Source of the DNA: Curtobacterium sp. MCPF17_052
GTDB lineage: Bacteria; Actinomycetota; Actinomycetes; Actinomycetales; Microbacteriaceae
NCBI RefSeq assembly: GCF_003234085.1
Contig: NZ_QKSD01000005.1
Span: 184,650-248,649 of the forward strand
Length of the DNA stretch: 64,000 nt
Direction of reading: 5' to 3'
A model generated the notes under the pieces. It was not told the origin of the DNA and did no database searches. It saw only the letters and a list, made by a program, of their open reading frames with translations. Both the position numbers and the translations under genes were made by a program. Of this stretch, positions 14,447 to 60,409 are shown piece after piece (position 1 is the stretch's first letter; every line of letters starts with the position of its first letter).

Positions 14447-15929
14447 CGGTGTTCTCCTGGCTGGTGGTGGGAGCAGTTGCGGTGGAAGGGGTTGCGGCGG
14501 TGCGGGCGCGGAGCATGCCGACGACGACCAGGACGGCCGCGACGGCGGTGACCACCGCGCCCGCGATCGAGACGGCGCCCTCGAACGCGGCGGTCCGACC
14601 CGGCGCCCAGGGGGTCGTGCCGAGGTCGCCCGGCACGAGTGCGGCGAGGATCGTGCCCGTGGCGGCGATCCCGACCGCGGTGGCGATCTCACTCGCCGTG
14701 TCGACGAGCGCCGCCCCGATCGACGTCCGGTCGGCGGGCAGCCCGTGCAGGACGTTGTTGCCGGCCACGGCACCGACGACGCGCATGCCGGCGGCGACGA
14801 GCACGAGGGCGACCAGGACACCGGGGTACCCCAGCCGTGCGGTCAGGGCGAACACGGCGAGGCCGGCGACGACCGCGGCGGCGCTGATGCGTGCCGCCCG
14901 GTCGAGTCCGACGCGCTGGACGAACGGGCCGACGAGGCGTCCGCTGGCGAGGAGCACGACCACCTGCGGCAGCGTCCCGACTGCGGCGAGCGCCGGGGGC
15001 CATCCCCAGGCGAACTGCAGCTGCAGGGTGACGAGGTACGACAGCGCGGCCATGGCGAGACCCGCCGCGGCCTTGTACGCCAGGCCACTCGCGACGAGCG
15101 GCCGAGCGATCAGGTGCAGGTCGAGCAGCGGGTGGTGTGCGGTGCGCTCCCGGACGACGAAGCCGACGGCCACGAGGGCGGTGACCGCGCCGGCGCCCCA
15201 CCCGGCCCATCCGGCAGCGCCACCGACGACGAGCGTCGGGGTGACGAGGACGCCGACGATGCTCGCGGTACCGAGGACCGCCCCGGCGACGTCGATCGGG
15301 TCGCGGTGCAGGTCGTCCGGGCGGTCCGCGGCGATCCCTGCCCGGATGCCGGCGAAGGCGACGACCGCGATCGGCACGTCCGCGACGAGCAGCACCTGCC
15401 ACGGCGCCACGGCCAGGACGAACCCGCCGACGGTCGGCCCGACGGCGAGGCCGACCAGCCCGGCGGTGGAGATGACGGTGAGCGCCCGGACCCGCAGGTC
15501 CTGGCGGGCGAAGAGGCGGAACGCCAGTGCCATCGAACCGGGGGTCGTCATCGCGGCGGCGACGCCCATCAGGGCCCGGACGACGATGAGCTCCTGGACC
15601 GAGGTGACGAACACGGTCAGGAGGCTCGCCACCGCCAGCAGCACCAGGCCGACGAGCATCGTGCGACGCCGGCCGACGCGGTCGGCGACCGCACCGAACA
15701 GCAGCATCAGGCCGCCGAAGGCCACCGAGTAGGCACCCGACACCCACTGCAGCGCGGTCGTCGAGGCCCGGAGGTCACGGGCGATGGTCGGCAGCGCGAC
15801 GTTCAGGACCGAGTTGTCGAGCATCTCGAACAGGAAGACCGCGGACAGGCCGGCCAACGGCAGCCAGGCGTCGCGGAGACCAGCGGGTGGCGAGACGGGT
15901 GTGGTCGGCGGGGAGGTTCGTACTGACAC
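14439..15929 (-). CDS. MFS drug exporter (DHA2, 14-helix type)
   Basis: 496 residues from the GTG at 15929, which has AAGGAG upstream. Motifs include LDNSVLNVALPTIARDL (motif D1 region), GAVADRVGRRRTMLVGL (motif A), VRALMGVAAAMTTPGSMAL (motif B) and GPTVGGFVLAVAPWQ (motif C, antiporter). The about 14 hydrophobic segments place it with the QacA/EmrB proton-driven exporters. It is first in an operon with the downstream esterase. No divergent regulator is present; the next gene to the right is a flavin amine oxidase on the other strand. Confidence 0.93.
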   Translation of the reverse strand: MSVRTSPPTTPVSPPAGLRDAWLPLAGLSAVFLFEMLDNSVLNVALPTIARDLRASTTALQWVSGAYSVAFGGLMLLFGAVADRVGRRRTMLVGLVLLAVASLLTVFVTSVQELIVVRALMGVAAAMTTPGSMALAFRLFARQDLRVRALTVISTAGLVGLAVGPTVGGFVLAVAPWQVLLVADVPIAVVAFAGIRAGIAADRPDDLHRDPIDVAGAVLGTASIVGVLVTPTLVVGGAAGWAGWGAGAVTALVAVGFVVRERTAHHPLLDLHLIARPLVASGLAYKAAAGLAMAALSYLVTLQLQFAWGWPPALAAVGTLPQVVVLLASGRLVGPFVQRVGLDRAARISAAAVVAGLAVFALTARLGYPGVLVALVLVAAGMRVVGAVAGNNVLHGLPADRTSIGAALVDTASEIATAVGIAATGTILAALVPGDLGTTPWAPGRTAAFEGAVSIAGAVVTAVAAVLVVVGMLRARTAATPSTATAPTTSQENTDV

Positions 15930-20787: not shown

Positions 20788-26775
<5,988 letters not shown>

Positions 26776-35416: not shown

Positions 35417-36556
35417 TCAGACGGACGCGCCGGTCCACTCGTCGACGGCGGCCACGTGGTCAGCACCGGCCGTGCCGGACGCGCGGGCGGCGACGACGCG
35501 CTCCAGGTGCGTCGGCGGGTTCGACGGCACGTGCTCGGGCCGGTCGGACTCGTTGATGCGGCGCAGCTCCGGGACGATGTCCTCGGCCAGGATGTCGATC
35601 TGCTCGAGCACCGTCTTCAGCGGCAGGCCGGCGTGGTCGATGAGGAACAGCTGGCGCTGGTAGTGCCCGACGTGGTCCTTCATCGTGGCGTACCGGTCGA
35701 TGACCTGCTGCGGCGAACCGACGGTGAGCGGGGTCTGGGTGGTGAAGTCCTCCATCGACGGGCCGTGTCCGTAGACCGGGGCGTTGTCGAAGTAGGGACG
35801 GAACTCGTCGACTGCGTCCTGCGAGTTCTTCCGCGCGAAGAACTGCCCACCGAGGCCCACGATCGCCTGGTCAGCACGCCCGTGTCCGTGGTGCTCGTAG
35901 CGCTGCCGGTACAGCCCGACCATCTGCTCGGTGTGCTGGATCGGCCAGAAGATGTTGTTGTGGAAGAACCCGTCGCCGTAGTAGGCGGCCTGTTCCGCGA
36001 TCTCGGGCGTGCGGATCGACCCGTGCCAGACGAAGGGGGCGACGCCGTCGAGCGGGCGCGGGGTCGAGGTGAAGCCCTGCAGCGGCGTGCGGAACTGCCC
36101 CTGCCAGTTGACGACCTCGTTCTCCCAGAGCTGGCGGATCAGTGCGTAGTTCTCGACCGCCAGGTTCAGGCCCTGCCGGATGTCCTTGCCGAACCACGGG
36201 TAGACCGGGCCGGTGTTGCCGCGGCCCATCATCAGGTCCATGCGGCCGCCGGAGATGACCTGGAGCATCGCGTACTCCTCGGCGATGCGCACCGGGTCGT
36301 TCGTGGTGACGAGGGTCGTCGACGTCGAGAGGGTGATGTCCTTCGTCACGCCGGCCAGGTAGCCGAGCATGGTCGTGGGGCTCGAGGCGACGAACGGCGG
36401 GTTGTGGTGCTCGCCGGTGGCGAAGACGTCGAGGCCGGCCTGGTCCGCGTGCTGCGCGATCGTCAGGATGTCCCGGACGCGCTGGGTGTCGTCCGGCGTG
36501 GTCCCGGTGGTGGGGTCGGTGGTGACGTCGCTGACTGTGAAGATCCCGAACTGCAT
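35417..36556 (-). CDS. luciferase-like (LLM) flavin-dependent monooxygenase
   Basis: 379 residues. The start MQFGIFTVSDV and the barrel motifs GLDVFATGEHHNPPF, ITLSTSTTLVTTNDPVRIAE, EYAMLQVISGGRMDLMMGRG, GDGFFHNNIFWP are typical of class C flavin-dependent monooxygenases that use F420 or FMNH2. SPQQVIDRYATM near the C-terminus is also conserved. It is monocistronic. An ATGCGTTTGCAT palindrome at 36596-36607, 40 nt upstream, may be an operator. Confidence 0.92.
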   Translation of the reverse strand: MQFGIFTVSDVTTDPTTGTTPDDTQRVRDILTIAQHADQAGLDVFATGEHHNPPFVASSPTTMLGYLAGVTKDITLSTSTTLVTTNDPVRIAEEYAMLQVISGGRMDLMMGRGNTGPVYPWFGKDIRQGLNLAVENYALIRQLWENEVVNWQGQFRTPLQGFTSTPRPLDGVAPFVWHGSIRTPEIAEQAAYYGDGFFHNNIFWPIQHTEQMVGLYRQRYEHHGHGRADQAIVGLGGQFFARKNSQDAVDEFRPYFDNAPVYGHGPSMEDFTTQTPLTVGSPQQVIDRYATMKDHVGHYQRQLFLIDHAGLPLKTVLEQIDILAEDIVPELRRINESDRPEHVPSNPPTHLERVVAARASGTAGADHVAAVDEWTGASV

Positions 36557-36668
36557 GATGTGCCGCCTCGTCTGTCGCTGACTCGTCGCTGTTCTATGCG
36601 TTTGCATCGAACTGACGGTTACAACGTAGCGCAGGCGGGAGCATTCCCGCCACTGCCACCGCCCCCGT

Positions 36669-37574
36669 TCAGATGCGGACGGGAGGCGCGTCCGCGCTGG
36701 TCGTCGGCGGCACGTGGTGCATGCCATCGGCCAACCACACCGCCGTGATCACCGCCAGGACGCTGGCGGACGAGGCCAGCCGACCCGCCAGCAGCATCGC
36801 GCCGTGCTCTCCGTCACCGAGGGTCCCGACCAGCAGCGCGACCACACCGACCGCCAACGCGGCGGCCACGGCGACGAGCAGCACGACCGTCACCGCGCGT
36901 CGCGGTCCCCGGCGTCCGTCACGGTCGCCCCGGGCGCCGCGGTCCACCTGCGGTCCGACCGCCCGGACGAGCCCGAGCCAGAACAGCGCGACCGCGCAGG
37001 CGCCGATGATGTCGCTCACCCGGTGCCACCCGTAGACGACGGTCTGGTTCGCGACGAACACCGCGTAGACGGCGCCGACGAGCAGCACCAGCGGCCGGAA
37101 CCGCCGCGGCGTGACCATCAACACGGCGAACAACGCCGCGAGGGCGATGGTCGCGTGCCCCGACGGGAACGAGTTCGGCGTCGTCGACTGAGCGATCTCC
37201 GGGCGCTCGGCGATACGCTTGAGCAACGTCGAGGTGGCCGCGGACGCGAGCACCACGAAGCCCGCTCCGAGCCCCACGGCGAGCCGCCTGCGTGCGAACG
37301 CGACGGCGGCGATCACGACGACCAACAGCAGGATCACCGGCACCGAGATGACGTTGAGTGCGGTGTCCGACCCGAACAGGTCGGACTCGCGGACACCGCC
37401 GAGCGCGGCGTCCTCCACCCGCTGCCCCAGCGGCGTCAACACGGCGACCGCGTAGACGGAAGGCACGATCACGAACCCCAGAGCCGCGAGCAGAGCCCAC
37501 CGGAGCCTCCGGGAGACGCTCGGTCCACGCCCCTCGTCGACGGACTCGGGGGCGGTGCGCTCAGGCGTCCGCAT
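36669..37574 (-). CDS. PAP2-family phosphatase (membrane)
   Basis: About 301 residues from the ATG at 37574; GTG at 37577 or ATG at 37583 are also possible after AGGAGG. Five to eight helices are predicted. Motif 1 is LLKRIAERP, motif 2 SFPSGHAT, motif 3 GWHRVSDIIGA. The Arg that normally precedes motif 3 (SR) is replaced by NQ, so substrate handling may differ. Such enzymes dephosphorylate lipid phosphates such as undecaprenyl diphosphate or phosphatidate. It is divergent from the DUF4383 gene. Confidence 0.85.
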   Translation of the reverse strand: MRTPERTAPESVDEGRGPSVSRRLRWALLAALGFVIVPSVYAVAVLTPLGQRVEDAALGGVRESDLFGSDTALNVISVPVILLLVVVIAAVAFARRRLAVGLGAGFVVLASAATSTLLKRIAERPEIAQSTTPNSFPSGHATIALAALFAVLMVTPRRFRPLVLLVGAVYAVFVANQTVVYGWHRVSDIIGACAVALFWLGLVRAVGPQVDRGARGDRDGRRGPRRAVTVVLLVAVAAALAVGVVALLVGTLGDGEHGAMLLAGRLASSASVLAVITAVWLADGMHHVPPTTSADAPPVRI

Positions 37575-37860
37575 CACGGGCATCGTCCTCCTGGGGGTCA
37601 TGGTGGTCGGCCTCGTCGTCGGTCTGCTGCGCGGGAAGCGATTCGGTCGCTCGGGGTCCGACACGATACCGTTGGGGCACCCGTCCGAAGCTGGGAACGC
37701 CGGCCTTCGCAGCAAGGCCACGGCCGTCCTGCAGCAGGTCTCCGGACAGCGTGACACAGGTCGGTCCGGCACCGGAGCGCGTGCCGCTGACAGTGTGCGT
37801 GACCAGCGCGACGGCGGGCAGTCGTACAGCGCGATCGTCGCGCAGGAAGAGGAGACCGAA

Positions 37861-38313
37861 GTGGCCGTCAAGGAACCGAGCATCATCGCCTCGCCGAACC
37901 GCGCGTTGGCGATGACCGCCGGCACGCTCTTCGCGATCTGGGGCATCCTGGGCTTCTTCTTCGCCCAGGACGGTGGCGGAGCGTTCTTCAGCCGCTCCGG
38001 TGGGTTCCTCTGGAACGCGTTCGGGCTCAACCCGGCCCTCTGCGGGCTGTGGACGATCCTGGCCGCCGCGTTCTTCATCGTGGGCCTCGGCAACACGATC
38101 GGGTCCCGCACGGTGAACCGGGTCATCGGTGTCGTGCTGCTCGTGCTCGCCGTCTACGGGTTCGTGTTCTCGAACACCTCGGCGAACGTCCTCGCGCTGA
38201 ACACGACCGACAACGTCTTCCACGCCATCGTCGGCGTCGTCCTGCTGCTCACCGCGCTGGGTGCCGACAAGGAGAACATCCGCGCACTGCGGGCAGCGGG
38301 CGCCCGCGCCTGA
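37861..38313 (+). CDS. DUF4383 family membrane protein
   Basis: 150 residues from the GTG at 37861, preceded by GAGGAG. Four helices: LAMTAGTLFAIWGILGFFFA; LCGLWTILAAAFFIVGLGNT; VIGVVLLVLAVYGFVFSN; HAIVGVVLLLTALGA, with the family motif NTTDNVFHAIVG. DUF4383 proteins are small actinobacterial and cyanobacterial membrane proteins of unknown role. An in-frame upstream extension to 37555 exists but has atypical codons and overlaps the divergent PAP2 start, so I do not use it. Confidence 0.85.
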   Translation: MAVKEPSIIASPNRALAMTAGTLFAIWGILGFFFAQDGGGAFFSRSGGFLWNAFGLNPALCGLWTILAAAFFIVGLGNTIGSRTVNRVIGVVLLVLAVYGFVFSNTSANVLALNTTDNVFHAIVGVVLLLTALGADKENIRALRAAGARA

Positions 38314-38760
38314 CCTGCTCACCTCCGACGCCCGTCTGCCGCTCCGGCAGGCGGGCGTCGTCGTTCGTGGGGTGCGTGCGGCGCGGCCAGGTCGCGCGAC
38401 GCGCCGCCGGCCCCTCGCCGAGGTCGCACGACCTCCCGCCGGCCGCCCGTCCAGCAGGCACATCGTGCGACCTCGACGGACGCGAGCGGCACGTCGAGCG
38501 ACCAGGCGACGCGAGCGGCAGCTCACCCGCCCACCTACCGACGTCGCACGAACCGCCGCCGGGCAGCCGTCGACGTCGCACGAACGGCCGCCGGCCGGCC
38601 GCCCAGCAGGCACATCGTGCGACCTCGACGGACGCGAGCGGCACGTCGTGCGACCTCGACGGACGCGAGCGGCACGTCGTGCGACCTCGGCACCGGCCCG
38701 TCGAGGCCGCAGGGAGCGCGGGGGCGCACCACGGACGGAGCGGGCCGGCTCGCGTCGGCG
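38314..38760. repeat. gene-free array of inverted and tandem TCGTGCGAC repeats between convergent genes
   Basis: 447 bases between the convergent DUF4383 and helicase genes hold no credible coding frame. The 9-mer TCGTGCGAC or its reverse complement occurs seven times within 263 nt (38423, 38463, 38543, 38575, 38615, 38646, 38677): three in one orientation and four in the other. A 31-bp unit is repeated in tandem at 38616-38677, and the same unit plus flank is duplicated from 38452-38496. Inverted copies could form long stems, giving a terminator-like or protein-binding array. Function unknown. Confidence 0.85.
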
Positions 38761-40086
38761 TCAGGCCTCGGGTGCGTCCGAGGGCTCGGCGGCGGGCTTC
38801 GGCGGCTCGAGCTGCGTCGCGACGACGCGCGGCGACTCGGACATGAACCGCCGCACGTCGAGGTCCACGATGATGTCCGCCGGTCGGAGCGGCCGCGTCA
38901 GGTACAGCCCGTCCAGGGACGTCAAGCGCGACAACGCCACGTACGTCTGCCCGGCGCTGAACACCCGGTTGCCGAGGTCCACCACCGCCCGGTCGTAGGT
39001 GCTGCCCTGGGACTTGTGGATCGTCACGGCCCAGGCCAGGCGCAGGGGGAACTGCTGGAACTCCCCCACCGTGTCCTTCTTGAGTTCCTTCTTCTCCGGG
39101 TCGTACGAGTACTTGAACTTCTCCCACACCGACGGCTGGACCTCGAAGTCCTCACCGTCGACGCTGACCCACACCGTGTCGCGGATGCTCCGCACGATGC
39201 CGAGCGTGCCGTTCACCCAGCGCTGGTCCGGGTCGTTGCGGAGGAACATCACGTGGGCGCCGGGCTTCAGCTCGAGGGCTTCGTCCGCCGGGAAGTTCCG
39301 ACCGCCGAAGTCGCCGTTGACGTCGGCCTTGGCGGTCTTCAGCTTGCCGGGCAGCCGTTCGAGGGCGGCTTTGTTGATCCGGGCGACGGTGTCGTTCCGG
39401 GTGGCGAGGGTGATCGCGTCGTCGGGGGCAGGACGGGCGCCCGCTTCGTTGAGCCGCTGCGCGACGTCGGCGGTGACCCGGCCGTGGCGGACGGCGGTGA
39501 GCATCGCGGCGAAGGCATCGTCCCGCTGCCGGTGCACGGTCGCGAGTTCGATGATGTGGAGCTGGGCCTCGAGCCACACCTTGGCGTCGAAGAACCACAT
39601 GGACCGGTAGTGGTCGGTGAAGTAGGCGCGCTCGTCACCGTCACCCGGTACCGGGGGCAGCTGGTACGGGTCGCCGAACATGACCACCTGGACGCCGCCG
39701 AACGGCTCGAACTGCCGTCCGCGGGCCTTCCGCAACGAGCGGTCCATGGCGTCGAGCAGATCGGCGTTGACCATGGAGACCTCGTCGATGACCAGGGTGT
39801 CGATGGTGTTGAGGAGTTTCCGGGTGTCCGGGCCCTGCCGCAGTTCGGCGTCCGCGATGAGGCCGATCGGCAGGCGGAACAGCGAGTGGATCGTCTGTCC
39901 GCCGACGTTCAGCGCCGCGACACCCGTCGGGGCGCAGATGACGACCTGCTTCTCGGTGTTCCAGGACAGGTGGTTGAGCAGCGTGGACTTGCCGGTGCCG
40001 GCTCGTCCGGTGATGAAGACGTGGTCGCGCGTCGACTCGATGTACTCGAAGACCGCCCGCTGTTCGGCGGAGAGCTCGACGCTCAT
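38761..40086 (-). CDS. PIF1/RecD-like ATP-dependent DNA helicase
   Basis: 441 residues. Walker A is ITGRAGTGKSTLLNHLSW, motif Ia region APTGVAALNVGGQTIHSLFR, Walker B LVIDEVSMVNADLLDAMDR, motif III FGDPYQLPPV and the C-terminal motif VTIHKSQGSTYDRAVVDLG with YVALSRLTSLDGLYL. Layout and size match SF1B helicases of the PIF1 group, which unwind 5' to 3' and may resolve G-quadruplexes or R-loops. The ATG overlaps the stop of the CopD-CtaG gene (ATGA), an unexpected partner. Confidence 0.93.
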   Translation of the reverse strand: MSVELSAEQRAVFEYIESTRDHVFITGRAGTGKSTLLNHLSWNTEKQVVICAPTGVAALNVGGQTIHSLFRLPIGLIADAELRQGPDTRKLLNTIDTLVIDEVSMVNADLLDAMDRSLRKARGRQFEPFGGVQVVMFGDPYQLPPVPGDGDERAYFTDHYRSMWFFDAKVWLEAQLHIIELATVHRQRDDAFAAMLTAVRHGRVTADVAQRLNEAGARPAPDDAITLATRNDTVARINKAALERLPGKLKTAKADVNGDFGGRNFPADEALELKPGAHVMFLRNDPDQRWVNGTLGIVRSIRDTVWVSVDGEDFEVQPSVWEKFKYSYDPEKKELKKDTVGEFQQFPLRLAWAVTIHKSQGSTYDRAVVDLGNRVFSAGQTYVALSRLTSLDGLYLTRPLRPADIIVDLDVRRFMSESPRVVATQLEPPKPAAEPSDAPEA

Positions 40087-42125
40087 CGCGCGCTCGATCC
40101 GCTCGCGACGCCGCTGTCGCCGACCGCTGTCGCGGTGTCGGCGTCCGGGAGGCTCGTGGGCACGTCCGCCGGGGACGCGGCCGCCGGTGCGATGGGCTGG
40201 TCCTCGGCCCCGCCGACACCGCCGCCGACACCGACCCCGGCACCCGGACGGGTCCACAGGCGCACCGCGCCGACGACGACCACCGCGACGACGACGAGCA
40301 CACCCGCGACGATCAGCAGCGCGCCTGCCCGGGCCTGGTCGACGAGCGGGTCCGGGCCCCAGGTGCGCCCCATCGCCCCGAACCAGGACGCCTGCAGCAG
40401 CCCGAGCGGCCCCTGCATCGCGATGCCGAGCGAGATGGTGGCCGCCGCGACGACGACCGCTCCGACGGCACGCACGAGGAACGCCGCTGCCGACGGCCGC
40501 CGGGCGCCGAGGGCGATCGGCGTGAGGAGGGTCGGCAGCGCCAGGAGCCCCACGAGCAGGAAGACCAGGTCCACCACGGTCCGGCCCATGGCGTCGCTGA
40601 CGGACCAGCGCAGCACGTCGGTCGCGTACAGCCCCCACCAGATGCCGGCGAGCAGCAGGAACGCCGGGAACGGCTGGACCAGGTACCGCACGACGGCGTT
40701 GTCGACGAAGACCGTGGTCCACTCGGCCACGCCGGCGCTGTCGTCCGTTCGCGGGTGGACGGCTGCCCGGATGAGCTGCACGGGCGCCGCGGCCCAGACG
40801 AGGGCGGGGACGACCAGCCCGAGCAGCACGTGCGCTCCGACGTTCGCCGACACCAGGAAGCGGTCGTAGGTGTGCAGCGAGCCCGAGGTCGCGACGACGA
40901 GCGCCACCACCGCGATGCCGGCGGACACCGAGCGGCGGAGGGGCCAGGAACGCCCCTGTCGACGCAGACGGACGACCCCGGCGACGTAGGCGGCCACGAG
41001 CAGCACGGCGGCCATCAGCCAGAACAGGTCGACGTTCCAGTTCGTCAGCCAGCCCCAGGACCCCGGCGCCGCGGGGAGCGGGTCGTCGGTCAGGACCTCG
41101 GCCGGGCTCGGGTCGCTGGTCTTGCTCAGCGCCAGCTGCCCCGCGGGGGTGGCGGTGCGGCCGAGCGCGGCGGCGAAGCCCGACGCGACGCCCATCACGG
41201 CGAGCTCGACCACGACGAGCGTCCAGAAGGGCCGGACGCGCGCGGGTGCGGCGGTCAGGGCGGAGATCACCCGGCGGCGGTGCATCGCTCCGATGACGCC
41301 CATCGCGACGATCGCGGCCACCTTGACGAGCACGAGCACGCCGTACGGGCTGCCGAGCTCAGCCCAGGCCCCGATCCGGATCTGGGCGGACACCACGCCG
41401 GAGACGCTCACGAGGACGAAGCAACCCAGCGCGACGCTGGAGTACCGGCCGACGACGGCTGCGAGACGCTCGCCGGGGACGACGTCACGGACGAGGACGA
41501 GCATGACGAGCCCGCCGACCCAGAGCGCGGCACCCACCAGGTGCAGTCCGAGTGCGGTGACCGCGGCGTCGTGGCTGGCGGTGCCGGCCGCATGGCCCTG
41601 CTGTGTCAGCGGGACGAGGCCGATCAGGGCGACACCGGCCGTCAGCGCGACCATGCCCCGGGATCGCACGGCGAAGCAGAGCACGGTGACCGCTGCCGCG
41701 ACGAGCACGGTGGTGAGCCAGGCGAGACCGAGGTCGGTCCCGGTGAGGAAGACGCCCATCGACTGGCCGAACTTCGCGTCGAGACTGACCGCCCCGCCGG
41801 CGACGCTGAGGTAGGTGAAGAAGGTCGTGACCGCCGAGGTCACCGTCCAGACACCGGCTGCCGCGGCGGCCACGTCGATCGCGCGGTCCCACTCCGGTGC
41901 CGTGCGGGAGAGTCCGATCGTCGCGAGGGCGAGCCCGCCGATGGCGGCTGCGGCGGACAGGTCGACGAGCATCCGCGCGATCGGGAGCCCGAAGCGGACG
42001 ACCGCACCGGGGTCGGCGATGAGGGCGGCGTCGGCACCACCGCCGACGACGAGCGCCACGAGCAGGGACACGAACGCCGCGAGCAGCAGGACGCCGGGGC
42101 CGGCGATGCGCGCGATGCGGTTCAC
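40083..42125 (-). CDS. CopD - CtaG fusion (copper resistance / cytochrome oxidase assembly)
   Basis: 680 residues, about 15 helices. The N-terminal half (about 1-330) resembles CopD, with LGLHLVGAALWVGGLVMLVL and the SVSGVVSAQIRIG loop. The C-terminal half (about 355-640) matches caa3_CtaG (SLHTYDRFLVSANVGAHVLL, QPFPAFLLLAGIWWGLYATD, GIAMQGPLGLLQASW). The fusion is common in actinobacteria and is linked to copper import and delivery to cytochrome c oxidase. The His residues in VSANVGAHVLLG and GLHLVG are candidate copper ligands. GTG start at 42125; the acidic C-terminus is low complexity. Confidence 0.92.
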   Translation of the reverse strand: MNRIARIAGPGVLLLAAFVSLLVALVVGGGADAALIADPGAVVRFGLPIARMLVDLSAAAAIGGLALATIGLSRTAPEWDRAIDVAAAAAGVWTVTSAVTTFFTYLSVAGGAVSLDAKFGQSMGVFLTGTDLGLAWLTTVLVAAAVTVLCFAVRSRGMVALTAGVALIGLVPLTQQGHAAGTASHDAAVTALGLHLVGAALWVGGLVMLVLVRDVVPGERLAAVVGRYSSVALGCFVLVSVSGVVSAQIRIGAWAELGSPYGVLVLVKVAAIVAMGVIGAMHRRRVISALTAAPARVRPFWTLVVVELAVMGVASGFAAALGRTATPAGQLALSKTSDPSPAEVLTDDPLPAAPGSWGWLTNWNVDLFWLMAAVLLVAAYVAGVVRLRRQGRSWPLRRSVSAGIAVVALVVATSGSLHTYDRFLVSANVGAHVLLGLVVPALVWAAAPVQLIRAAVHPRTDDSAGVAEWTTVFVDNAVVRYLVQPFPAFLLLAGIWWGLYATDVLRWSVSDAMGRTVVDLVFLLVGLLALPTLLTPIALGARRPSAAAFLVRAVGAVVVAAATISLGIAMQGPLGLLQASWFGAMGRTWGPDPLVDQARAGALLIVAGVLVVVAVVVVGAVRLWTRPGAGVGVGGGVGGAEDQPIAPAAASPADVPTSLPDADTATAVGDSGVASGSSAR

Positions 42126-59027: not shown

Positions 59028-60409
59028 CCCCCCTTCCCCCGCAGCCGATCAGCCCGCTCGACGGGCGCTACTACCCGATCGTGCACACGGTGGGCGAGCA
59101 CCTGTCCGAAGCCGGCCTCAACCGTGCCCGGATCCGGGTCGAGGTCGAGTGGCTCGTGTTCCTCACCGACCACGCGATGTTCACCACCTCCCCGCTGTCC
59201 GTCGACGACAAGGCCGCGCTCCGCGCCCTGGTCGACGACTTCGGCCAGGAGCAGATCGCGGAGCTCGCCGAGATCGAGGCGACCACCCGCCACGACGTCA
59301 AGGCGGTCGAGTACTTCGTCCGTCGTCGCCTCAGCGACCTGGGCCTCGACGCCGTCGCCGAGCTGACGCACTTCGCCGCGACCAGCGAGGACGTCAACAA
59401 CCTCTCCTACGCGCTGACCGTCCGTGACGCCGTCGAGCACGTCTGGCTGCCGTCCGCACGCGCGGTCGTGGAGCGCCTGCGGGAGATGGCCACGAGCCTC
59501 CGGGCCGTGCCGATGCTCTCGCACACCCACGGCCAGCCCGCGACGCCGACCACGCTCGGCAAGGAGATCGCGGTCGTCGTCTACCGACTCGAGCGGATCC
59601 TGTCCCAGGTCGAGCGGGGCGAGTACCTCGGCAAGTTCTCCGGCGCGACCGGCACGTTCTCGGCGCACCTCGCCGCGGACCCGGAGGCCGACTGGCCCGC
59701 GCTGTCCCGCGAGTTCGTCGAGGGCCTCGGTCTGACGTGGAACCCGCTGACGACGCAGATCGAGTCGCACGACTGGCAGGCCGAGCTGTACGACCGGGTG
59801 CGGCACGCGAACCGGGTCCTGCACAACCTGGCGACCGACGTGTGGACCTACGTCTCGATGGGGTACTTCACGCAGATCCCGATCGCCGGCGCGACCGGGT
59901 CGTCGACGATGCCGCACAAGATCAACCCGATCCGGTTCGAGAACGCCGAGGCCAACCTCGAGATCTCCTCGGCGCTGTTCTCCACGCTGTCCGAGACCCT
60001 CGTCACGAGCCGTCTGCAGCGCGACCTGACCGACTCCACCACCCAGCGCAACATCGGCGTCGCGTTCGGGCACTCGCTGCTCGCGCTCGACAACCTGCGC
60101 CGTGGTCTGGGCGAGATCGCGGTGAACGAGATCCGCTTGGCCGAGGACCTCGACCACAACTGGGAGGTCCTGGCCGAGGCCATCCAGACCGTCATCCGCG
60201 CCGAGGTCACGGCCGGACAGTCGGACATCGAGGACCCCTACGCGATGCTCAAGGAGCTCACCCGGGGCAAGCGCATCGGGCGGCAGGAGCTCGTGGCGTT
60301 CGTGAACGGACTCGACGTCTCCGATGCTGCGAAGGCCCGACTGACGAACCTCACCCCGGCGACGTACACCGGCCTGGCGGACGAACTCGTCGACCACCTC
60401 GAGGTCTGA
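59024..60409 (+). CDS. purB: adenylosuccinate lyase
   Basis: 461 residues. The fumarase/lyase signature GSSTMPHKINPIRFENAEAN (about residue 290) and LSHTHGQPATPTTLGKEIAV identify it, along with ISPLDGRYYPIVHTVGEHLS at the start. It cleaves SAICAR and adenylosuccinate in purine synthesis. The E. coli-like form is about 456 residues, as here. The ATG overlaps the phosphatase stop. Confidence 0.97.
   Translation: MTPLPPQPISPLDGRYYPIVHTVGEHLSEAGLNRARIRVEVEWLVFLTDHAMFTTSPLSVDDKAALRALVDDFGQEQIAELAEIEATTRHDVKAVEYFVRRRLSDLGLDAVAELTHFAATSEDVNNLSYALTVRDAVEHVWLPSARAVVERLREMATSLRAVPMLSHTHGQPATPTTLGKEIAVVVYRLERILSQVERGEYLGKFSGATGTFSAHLAADPEADWPALSREFVEGLGLTWNPLTTQIESHDWQAELYDRVRHANRVLHNLATDVWTYVSMGYFTQIPIAGATGSSTMPHKINPIRFENAEANLEISSALFSTLSETLVTSRLQRDLTDSTTQRNIGVAFGHSLLALDNLRRGLGEIAVNEIRLAEDLDHNWEVLAEAIQTVIRAEVTAGQSDIEDPYAMLKELTRGKRIGRQELVAFVNGLDVSDAAKARLTNLTPATYTGLADELVDHLEV

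Follow-up and report, generated by a model that had tools for sequence, protein, structure and literature searches.

Helically phased arrays of a 19-bp word behind Curtobacterium genes as candidate binding sites for a sequence-specific protein

In the genome of Curtobacterium sp. MCPF17_052, the genes for a DUF4383 protein (37555-38313, + strand) and a PIF1-like helicase (38761-40086, − strand, with an ortholog in 66 of 66 Curtobacterium genomes) converge on a gap that is filled with short repeats. Positions refer to the window, the whole 64,000-nt stretch of DNA analyzed here. What might such repeats do at the meeting point of two genes? A sequence-only reading of the window had described seven copies of one 9-mer in both orientations, together with 31-bp tandem repeats, and had named a structured terminator, a protein-binding array, and a mobile repeat as possible explanations.

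The array and its fixed spacing

The seven 9-mers lie at 38423-38685, as that reading had placed them (nine in the window as a whole), and their clustering is beyond chance (P of at least seven in 263 bp, ~4e-17; dinucleotide-shuffle mean of 3.74 per 64 kb). The tandem repeat was recovered as well (TRF, 38609-38689, period 31, 2.6 copies, 98% match), and the gap was confirmed as non-coding, between the stops of the two convergent genes. The 9-mer did not hold up as the repeat unit, since it is the core of a 19-bp word that occurs at nine sites. The array (38386-38691) is made of nine copies of this word, GAGGTCGCACGA-NN-TGCCG, in which NN are two free positions; the copies run in both directions, form two clusters, and in a site scan of the window carried 0 to 3 mismatches within 38388-38688.

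We write > for a forward site and < for a reverse site, and give start-to-start distances in bp. Cluster 1 (38386-38505), as delimited by an element model termed R1 (described below) and the site scan, reads > > < < with spacings of 32, 36, and 31; its sites are at 38388-38406 (+, 3 mismatches to GAGGTCGCACGANNTGCCG), 38420-38438 (+, 1 mismatch), 38456-38474 (−, 1 mismatch), and 38487-38505 (−, 3 mismatches), and R1 matched it at 38386-38478 (+) and 38416-38505 (−). Cluster 2 (38538-38691), delimited in the same way, reads > > < < < with spacings of 32, 36, 31, and 31; its sites are at 38540-38558 and 38572-38590 (both +, 2 mismatches), 38608-38626 (−, 1 mismatch), and 38639-38657 and 38670-38688 (both − and exact), with R1 matches at 38538-38630 (+), 38569-38633 (−), and 38636-38691 (−). 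Cluster 2 partly duplicates cluster 1 (38391-38503 versus 38543-38655, 152-bp period, 87% identity over 113 bp). A doubtful, decayed site with 5 mismatches at 38516-38534 (−) falls outside the count of nine. Elsewhere in the window, single 9-mers at 15659-15667 and 59764-59772 gave no element-model match up to E 1 and look like chance matches, and a GCCGTT hexamer is repeated in tandem at 21265-21370 (17.7 copies, 76% match).

Collecting such sites across genomes yielded 131 distinct cores, of which 102 could be oriented; 91 of these remained at a maximum of two per locus, and 80 entered the alignment (A1) from which R1, a sequence-only model of the ~93-bp element, was built. A profile of 76 elements of a 32-bp class and 26 of a 31-bp class, selected by their 36-bp junction, reads CC-GAGGTCGCACGACRYGCCGC, a semi-conserved spacer of 12-13 bp, GAGGTCGCRCGAACTGYCG, 17 bp of largely free sequence, and then CGGCAGTTCGTGCGACCTCGGCG. 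Conservation breaks off sharply at both ends of the profile and is almost absent from its interior, and the 17-bp stretch within the inverted junction is constant in length with little conservation of sequence.

Spacing was also scanned over 392 loci, with sites of up to 3 mismatches, identical stretches counted once, and no preselection for the 36-bp junction. Facing sites (> to <) within 60 bp of each other were 36 bp apart in 158 of 160 pairs, the other two being 37 and 57 bp apart. Sites in the same direction were 31 or 32 bp apart in 238 of 258 pairs on both strands (forward parallel, >>, 119 of 126; reverse parallel, <<, 119 of 132), and back-to-back pairs (< to >, n = 14) had no single fixed distance. 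A step of 31-32 bp is three turns of B-DNA; parallel sites are thus spaced in whole helical turns with a free spacer, unlike facing sites, whose 36 bp does not correspond to an integral number of turns. Facing clusters were present in 18 of the 20 loci listed, where most clusters combined a single inverted junction with 1-6 forward sites and 1-5 reverse sites, and clusters were themselves repeated in tandem at steps mostly of 42-144 bp, some of them irregular.

Related genera vary this design. In one genome of genus g106 (G192, locus L264), parallel neighbors are 41, 42, and 41 bp apart, which is four turns, and the inverted junction is identical (34 bp when measured with 17-mers in 4 of 4 elements, which corresponds to 36 with 19-mers). 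G341, also of g106, showed one parallel distance of 31 bp (L416), versus the 41-42 bp of G192, and this difference of one helical turn is a natural test of phasing. In genus g33 the inverted junction is one base shorter (5 of 5 elements in G241).

Distribution across genomes and position behind genes

The bare 9-mer, whose even frequency across the genome the sequence-only reading had named as evidence against a special array, comes close to just that: it is unenriched in the host genome (99 copies versus 77 of a reversed control), whereas the extended word is enriched. With up to 2 mismatches, the long word occurred 43 times in the host genome versus 7 for the control and 207 times versus 3 in G019, the maximum among the 66 Curtobacterium genomes, in some species of which it was near background. 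The exact word was found in at least 113 genome stretches, 65 from Curtobacterium, 6 from Microbacteriaceae without a genus name, and 42 from others; the 32 of these 42 for which match counts were listed had a single match each.

R1 matched 65 of the 66 Curtobacterium genomes at E ≤ 1e-3. G059 had no match, G068 one weak match, and G026, G071, and G072 four or five, all per-genome counts for R1 and for the second model being lower bounds, with a fixed number of candidates scored per genome. Across Microbacteriaceae, 28 of 199 genomes matched R1, and the three strong ones were all Curtobacterium. The second, core-only model, R2, was built from 24 hand-picked cores, 11 of which came from other genera (G192, G241, G091, and G174), and matched 50 of 398 genomes. 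Eight genomes outside Curtobacterium, from genera g25, g26, g33, and g106, had at least 11 matches, summed over both strands with 13 candidates scored in each genome; five of the eight had contributed nothing to the model (G286, G290, G341, G403, and G476). The remaining 34 matching non-Curtobacterium genomes included 27 with one or two weak matches. G092 and G099, members of g26 and g33, had no R2 match, and at the strict setting neither did at least two Curtobacterium genomes (G060 and G087); G059 had one R2 match at 2e-4. Diverged forms of the element occur in four further genera of the family; the dialect in the window is thus local, its design wider.

The arrays have a characteristic place in the genome. 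Among the 131 distinct cores, 72 lay in convergent gaps, 45 in tandem gaps, and 0 in divergent gaps, with 3 overlapping a called gene and 11 at locus edges. Divergent gaps thus held 0 of the 117 placed cores, although they made up 14.7% of intergenic bases at the same loci (gene classes came from a custom gene-calling script, and the baseline gaps include the array gaps themselves). In tandem gaps (23 loci), elements lay a median of 107 bp from the 3' end upstream and 375 bp from the start of the following gene, and many loci were within 100 bp of a 3' end. Element polarity showed no clear agreement with gene direction (13 of 23 tandem loci, 22 of 33 tandem elements); at convergent loci, with polarity taken by the nearer end, 14 of 37 followed gene direction.

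Many loci recur between species. Among 80 array loci, 112 pairs shared an orthologous flanking gene, where a rough estimate for a random draw from roughly 1000 gene ends is ~3, and 62 loci fell into groups of two or more; of a further 29 loci, 23 shared a flank with another array locus. Genes whose 3' ends face recurrent arrays include dnaG, guaA, groEL, eno, rpsT, and holA, and leuA faces one with its 5' side. We scored guaA and eno, picked because they were recurrent, along with the window's helicase (stretches L210, L353, L394, and L398 were cut by contig ends). The element was present behind guaA in 45 of 66 genomes at E ≤ 1e-3 (32 of 66 at 1e-5), behind eno in 23 of 66 (16 of 66), and behind the helicase in 10 of 66 (6 of 66). 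Because species differ in whether a given locus is occupied, dependence of any one gene on its array cannot be genus-wide. At the helicase 3' gap of G024 (L182), a different inverted repeat, judged by eye, seemingly stands where other species carry the array.

On the scale of the chromosome, at least 138 loci from six genomes were spread over its whole length, with about 17-30 loci per chromosome among the matches listed at the thresholds used. The terminus-proximal fifth held 48 loci versus 27.6 expected and the origin-proximal fifth only 15 of the 138 listed, with some loci near the origin; because loci are shared, the 138 do not count as independent across species, and a p-value for this bias is not to be relied on. 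The origin was inferred in two of the six genomes (G029 and G019) from a weak amidotransferase match that several single-contig genomes place ~15 kb from their start, and the start of G075 reads as what we take to be dnaA. Sites confined to the terminus or to the origin do not fit this whole-chromosome spread, in which the terminus excess is mild.

Hairpin, mobile repeat, or binding sites

Were the facing arms of an element to form a stem, a substitution in one arm should come with a compensating one in the opposite arm. In a set reduced to a single element for each locus (67 elements), no such matching was seen at the free pairs 8.46, 14.40, 16.38, 20.34, and 21.33. Pairs 8.46, 14.40, 20.34, and 21.33 were at most one standard deviation above the shuffle, pair 16.38 was divided into 42 CG, 10 CA, 9 TG, and 3 TA, and the two N pairs had z values of 1.6 and 1.0 against the shuffle. 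Six conserved pairs (0.54, 3.51, 5.49, 6.48, 11.43, and 18.36) were above it, with z values of 2.3-4.5, and at each the excess came through few sequences. Pooling all 102 elements gave 1560 Watson-Crick cells versus 1510.6 in shuffles; in A1, pairing was 86.1% versus 84.4%, with a covariation of 0.126 versus 0.099 and 44 versus 31 double changes. G.T and A.C mismatches were roughly balanced (96 versus 83 in the 102 elements), and because both are similarly common, no strand is clearly preferred. RNAalifold returned 0 consensus pairs on 80 elements, and Rfam gave 0 matches at E up to 1 in window positions 36500-41000. Some single elements have perfectly complementary arms. We read the excess pairing as relatedness and dialects common to both arms, each arm being constrained as a DNA word of its own; alternatively, arm pairing itself may matter.

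The window does hold a structure of the terminator kind, separate from the array. An inverted repeat adjoins the left gene at 38326-38360, within a stretch (38314-38372) that folds at −40.1 kcal/mol, and a similar hairpin at the helicase gap was also present in relatives that lack the array (among the 13 of 66 genomes listed). For the helicase gene the array precedes this shared hairpin, so the array may have a transcript-stabilizing role at the window locus. At other loci, a perfect stem of at least 9 bp followed the guaA stop within 110 nt in 32 of 66 genomes and the eno stop in 7 of 64; by this strict test, a terminator that always precedes the element is not general.

The proposal that inverted sites fold in the transcript and there stop transcription or protect the 3' end can draw on the inverted pairs near 3' ends, on the fully complementary arms of some elements, and on pair counts above shuffles, six conserved pairs included when each locus is represented once. 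It sits poorly with free pairs that lack compensatory change, with the empty RNAalifold consensus and Rfam search, with the lack of a clear G.U strand bias or polarity, with unequal numbers of > and < sites, and with the separate stem found after the guaA stop in about half of the genomes. The RNA hairpin is disfavored, because free arm positions change independently and without strand bias; the structured-terminator option of the earlier reading went unsupported, leaving a weak excess of pairing at some conserved positions, and we consider a folded transcript distinctly unlikely as the explanation. Spread by a transposase, as in non-autonomous REP/BIME-like or MITE-like repeats that are tolerated behind genes, is also unlikely, if a little less so. 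Dispersal in many copies, sharp ends, strongly varying copy number, tandem amplification, and presence or absence at the helicase locus are what such repeats would show, as is the preference for 3' ends described for REPs in the accessible part of their catalogue (PMC3733652). Yet Y1_Tnp, the REP transposase family (PF01797), was found in 0 of 66 genomes, compared with matches in 5 of 14 control genomes; target-site duplications were absent among the 102 oriented elements (at the best offset, 4 of 102 shared a 5-mer, with 0.7 expected); clusters differ in site number about a single constant junction, which is not how a unit excised at fixed ends would behave; and many orthologous loci are common to several species. 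The GTAG/CGTC tag was likewise absent at the element ends, the flanks were at background, and the CGTC that occurs inside the spacer of the 31-bp class is away from any stem foot. A mobile repeat, one of the options of the sequence-only reading, is thus not supported as the main explanation. Local amplification of copies inside an array is clear, copy number growing there by tandem duplication, and gain or loss of whole arrays does occur, because loci differ between species; at the helicase locus, divergence is too high to read an empty site.

The remaining option of that reading, a protein-binding array, gained support from the helical spacing, the free spacer, the arms that vary independently at free positions, and the shared loci. 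Constant spacing, a phasing that keeps sites on one helix face whether they are three or four turns apart, indifference to orientation, and retention at orthologous gene ends, taken with the free spacer and independent arms, fit cooperative protein binding better than RNA structure or transposition. A barrier to read-through, in the form of a roadblock or a boundary, is suggested by the location of the arrays beyond gene ends, with no core between divergent promoters. We give about an even chance to helically phased binding arrays for a putative sequence-specific protein that most likely act as a cooperative barrier behind genes. The DNA-site part of this account (the sites, their geometry, their location, their recurrence at orthologous loci, and the independence of arms at free positions) is well supported by the comparisons above; protein binding, cooperativity, and barrier function are what we infer from it. 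The array would then be a set of docking sites on double-stranded DNA, each of ~17-19 bp and contacted in two blocks, GGTCGC and TGYCG, that are separated by about one turn of the helix. Proteins bound at same-direction sites three turns apart would share one face of the helix, and the center of a cluster would be a single inverted junction of fixed length, 36 bp from start to start, with free sequence inside. Located beyond gene 3' ends, and sometimes after a terminator-like hairpin as well, the bound proteins could cooperate along the array to form a barrier between neighboring transcription units, holding back RNA polymerase that reads through and perhaps also torsional stress. Arrays would grow and shrink locally by tandem duplication, and many loci would be inherited. 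A more specific version, in which a DNA-binding protein of Microbacteriaceae reads GGTCGC-N6-TGYCG on phased arrays behind core genes as a boundary system that insulates transcription units, is put forward tentatively.

The main rival to a barrier keeps the same DNA-protein arrays and gives them the job of anchoring, bridging, or marking the nucleoid, the 3' location then reflecting only where such sites do least harm. The tens of loci listed per chromosome, their chromosome-wide spread with a mild terminus excess (48 of 138 versus 27.6), the loci common to several species, and a polarity that does not clearly follow genes are all compatible with it. Marking alone, however, needs neither the many loci within 100 bp of a 3' end nor the absence of divergent cores (0 of 117), and loci near the origin, the non-independence of the 138 loci, and an origin inferred in two of six genomes also count against it; we hold this role possible but doubtful. 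Words of the DNA-uptake type are highly improbable. Such words in Neisseria (DUS) also form inverted pairs behind genes and have genus dialects, and both traits, inverted pairs at 3' ends and lineage dialects, are seen here. Against this, the copies are too few (no more than 207 of the long word in any of the 66 genomes), the bare 9-mer stays at background level, and we know of no role in DNA uptake for a rigid 31/36-bp phasing.

Known systems and word dialects

Several known families share part of this design. Chromosome-organizing systems such as matS/MatP, SBS/SlmA, and NBS/Noc use single palindromes in restricted domains; as here, they have tens of loci per chromosome and a specific word for one DNA-binding protein, but here several phased sites make up each array, and the arrays stand behind genes all along the chromosome. 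Phased operator arrays of Lrp/AsnC-type or other cooperative regulators act at promoters. They too have several sites about three helical turns apart on one DNA face, unlike the present arrays in that 0 of 117 placed cores here fall in a divergent (promoter-promoter) gap. REPs of the GTAG and CGTC superfamilies are palindromes of 20-40 bp with a GTAG or CGTC tag, the GTAG type being accompanied by RAYT transposases; the 19-bp word, in contrast, is non-palindromic, its spacing is fixed, its free arm positions lack covariation, and no Y1 transposase accompanies it in 66 genomes. In the accessible part of their catalogue, REPs and BIMEs are dispersed and extragenic, mostly behind convergent or unidirectional genes, and often in head-to-head pairs and clusters (PMC3733652), and the arrays likewise lie behind genes that are convergent or unidirectional (72 convergent, 45 tandem, and 0 divergent of 131). 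The same part of that catalogue contains no word beginning with "Actinobacteria" (PMC3733652). REPs bind gyrase, Pol I, and IHF, according to the accessible part of a further report (PMC1525189).

CRISPR arrays share direct repeats of ~31 bp with the arrays described here, which differ in having sites in both orientations, a semi-conserved repeated spacer of 12-13 bp, and no unique spacers. The complete genome of Curtobacterium sp. MR_MD2014 was reported with 13 "potential CRISPRs" (PMC4698388), and YC1, in the accessible part of its report, with 6 CRISPR regions (PMC7953303). Some of these reported CRISPRs may be phased arrays of the present kind, and CRISPR finders may be reporting them. A literature collection, searched for Curtobacterium, Microbacteriaceae, and actinobacterial repeats and for the words themselves, yielded no published description of these repeats. 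Should a single protein bind them, the arrays would provide high-GC actinobacteria with boundary sites behind genes throughout the genome, in a group where the stopping of transcription between crowded convergent genes is, to our knowledge, poorly known. With its rigid spacing, its natural three- and four-turn versions, and its lineage dialects, the system lends itself to direct tests of this idea.

The dialects themselves are best seen at eno and guaA. At the eno locus of G016 the word is changed to GTCGTGGGACC in place of GTCGTGCGACC, and the dialect of this lineage, GTCCCACGACTC, occupies the same eno locus as the standard word elsewhere. The G016 dialect with GTCCCACGACTCGCCG was found at several places in that genome, including the eno locus (L256) and two other contig places. 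Because the word is altered at all three, loci seem to change dialect together, although these places may instead reflect recent copying within that genome. Drift of the word into dialects at several loci together is as expected if the sites and a protein co-evolve. The guaA 3' ends of G013, G085, G014, and G030 (L387, L389, L386, and L395) carry variants near GATCGCACTTCGTGTCG, in which the junction is one base longer (span 52) and 16-17 of 17 arm positions are complementary.
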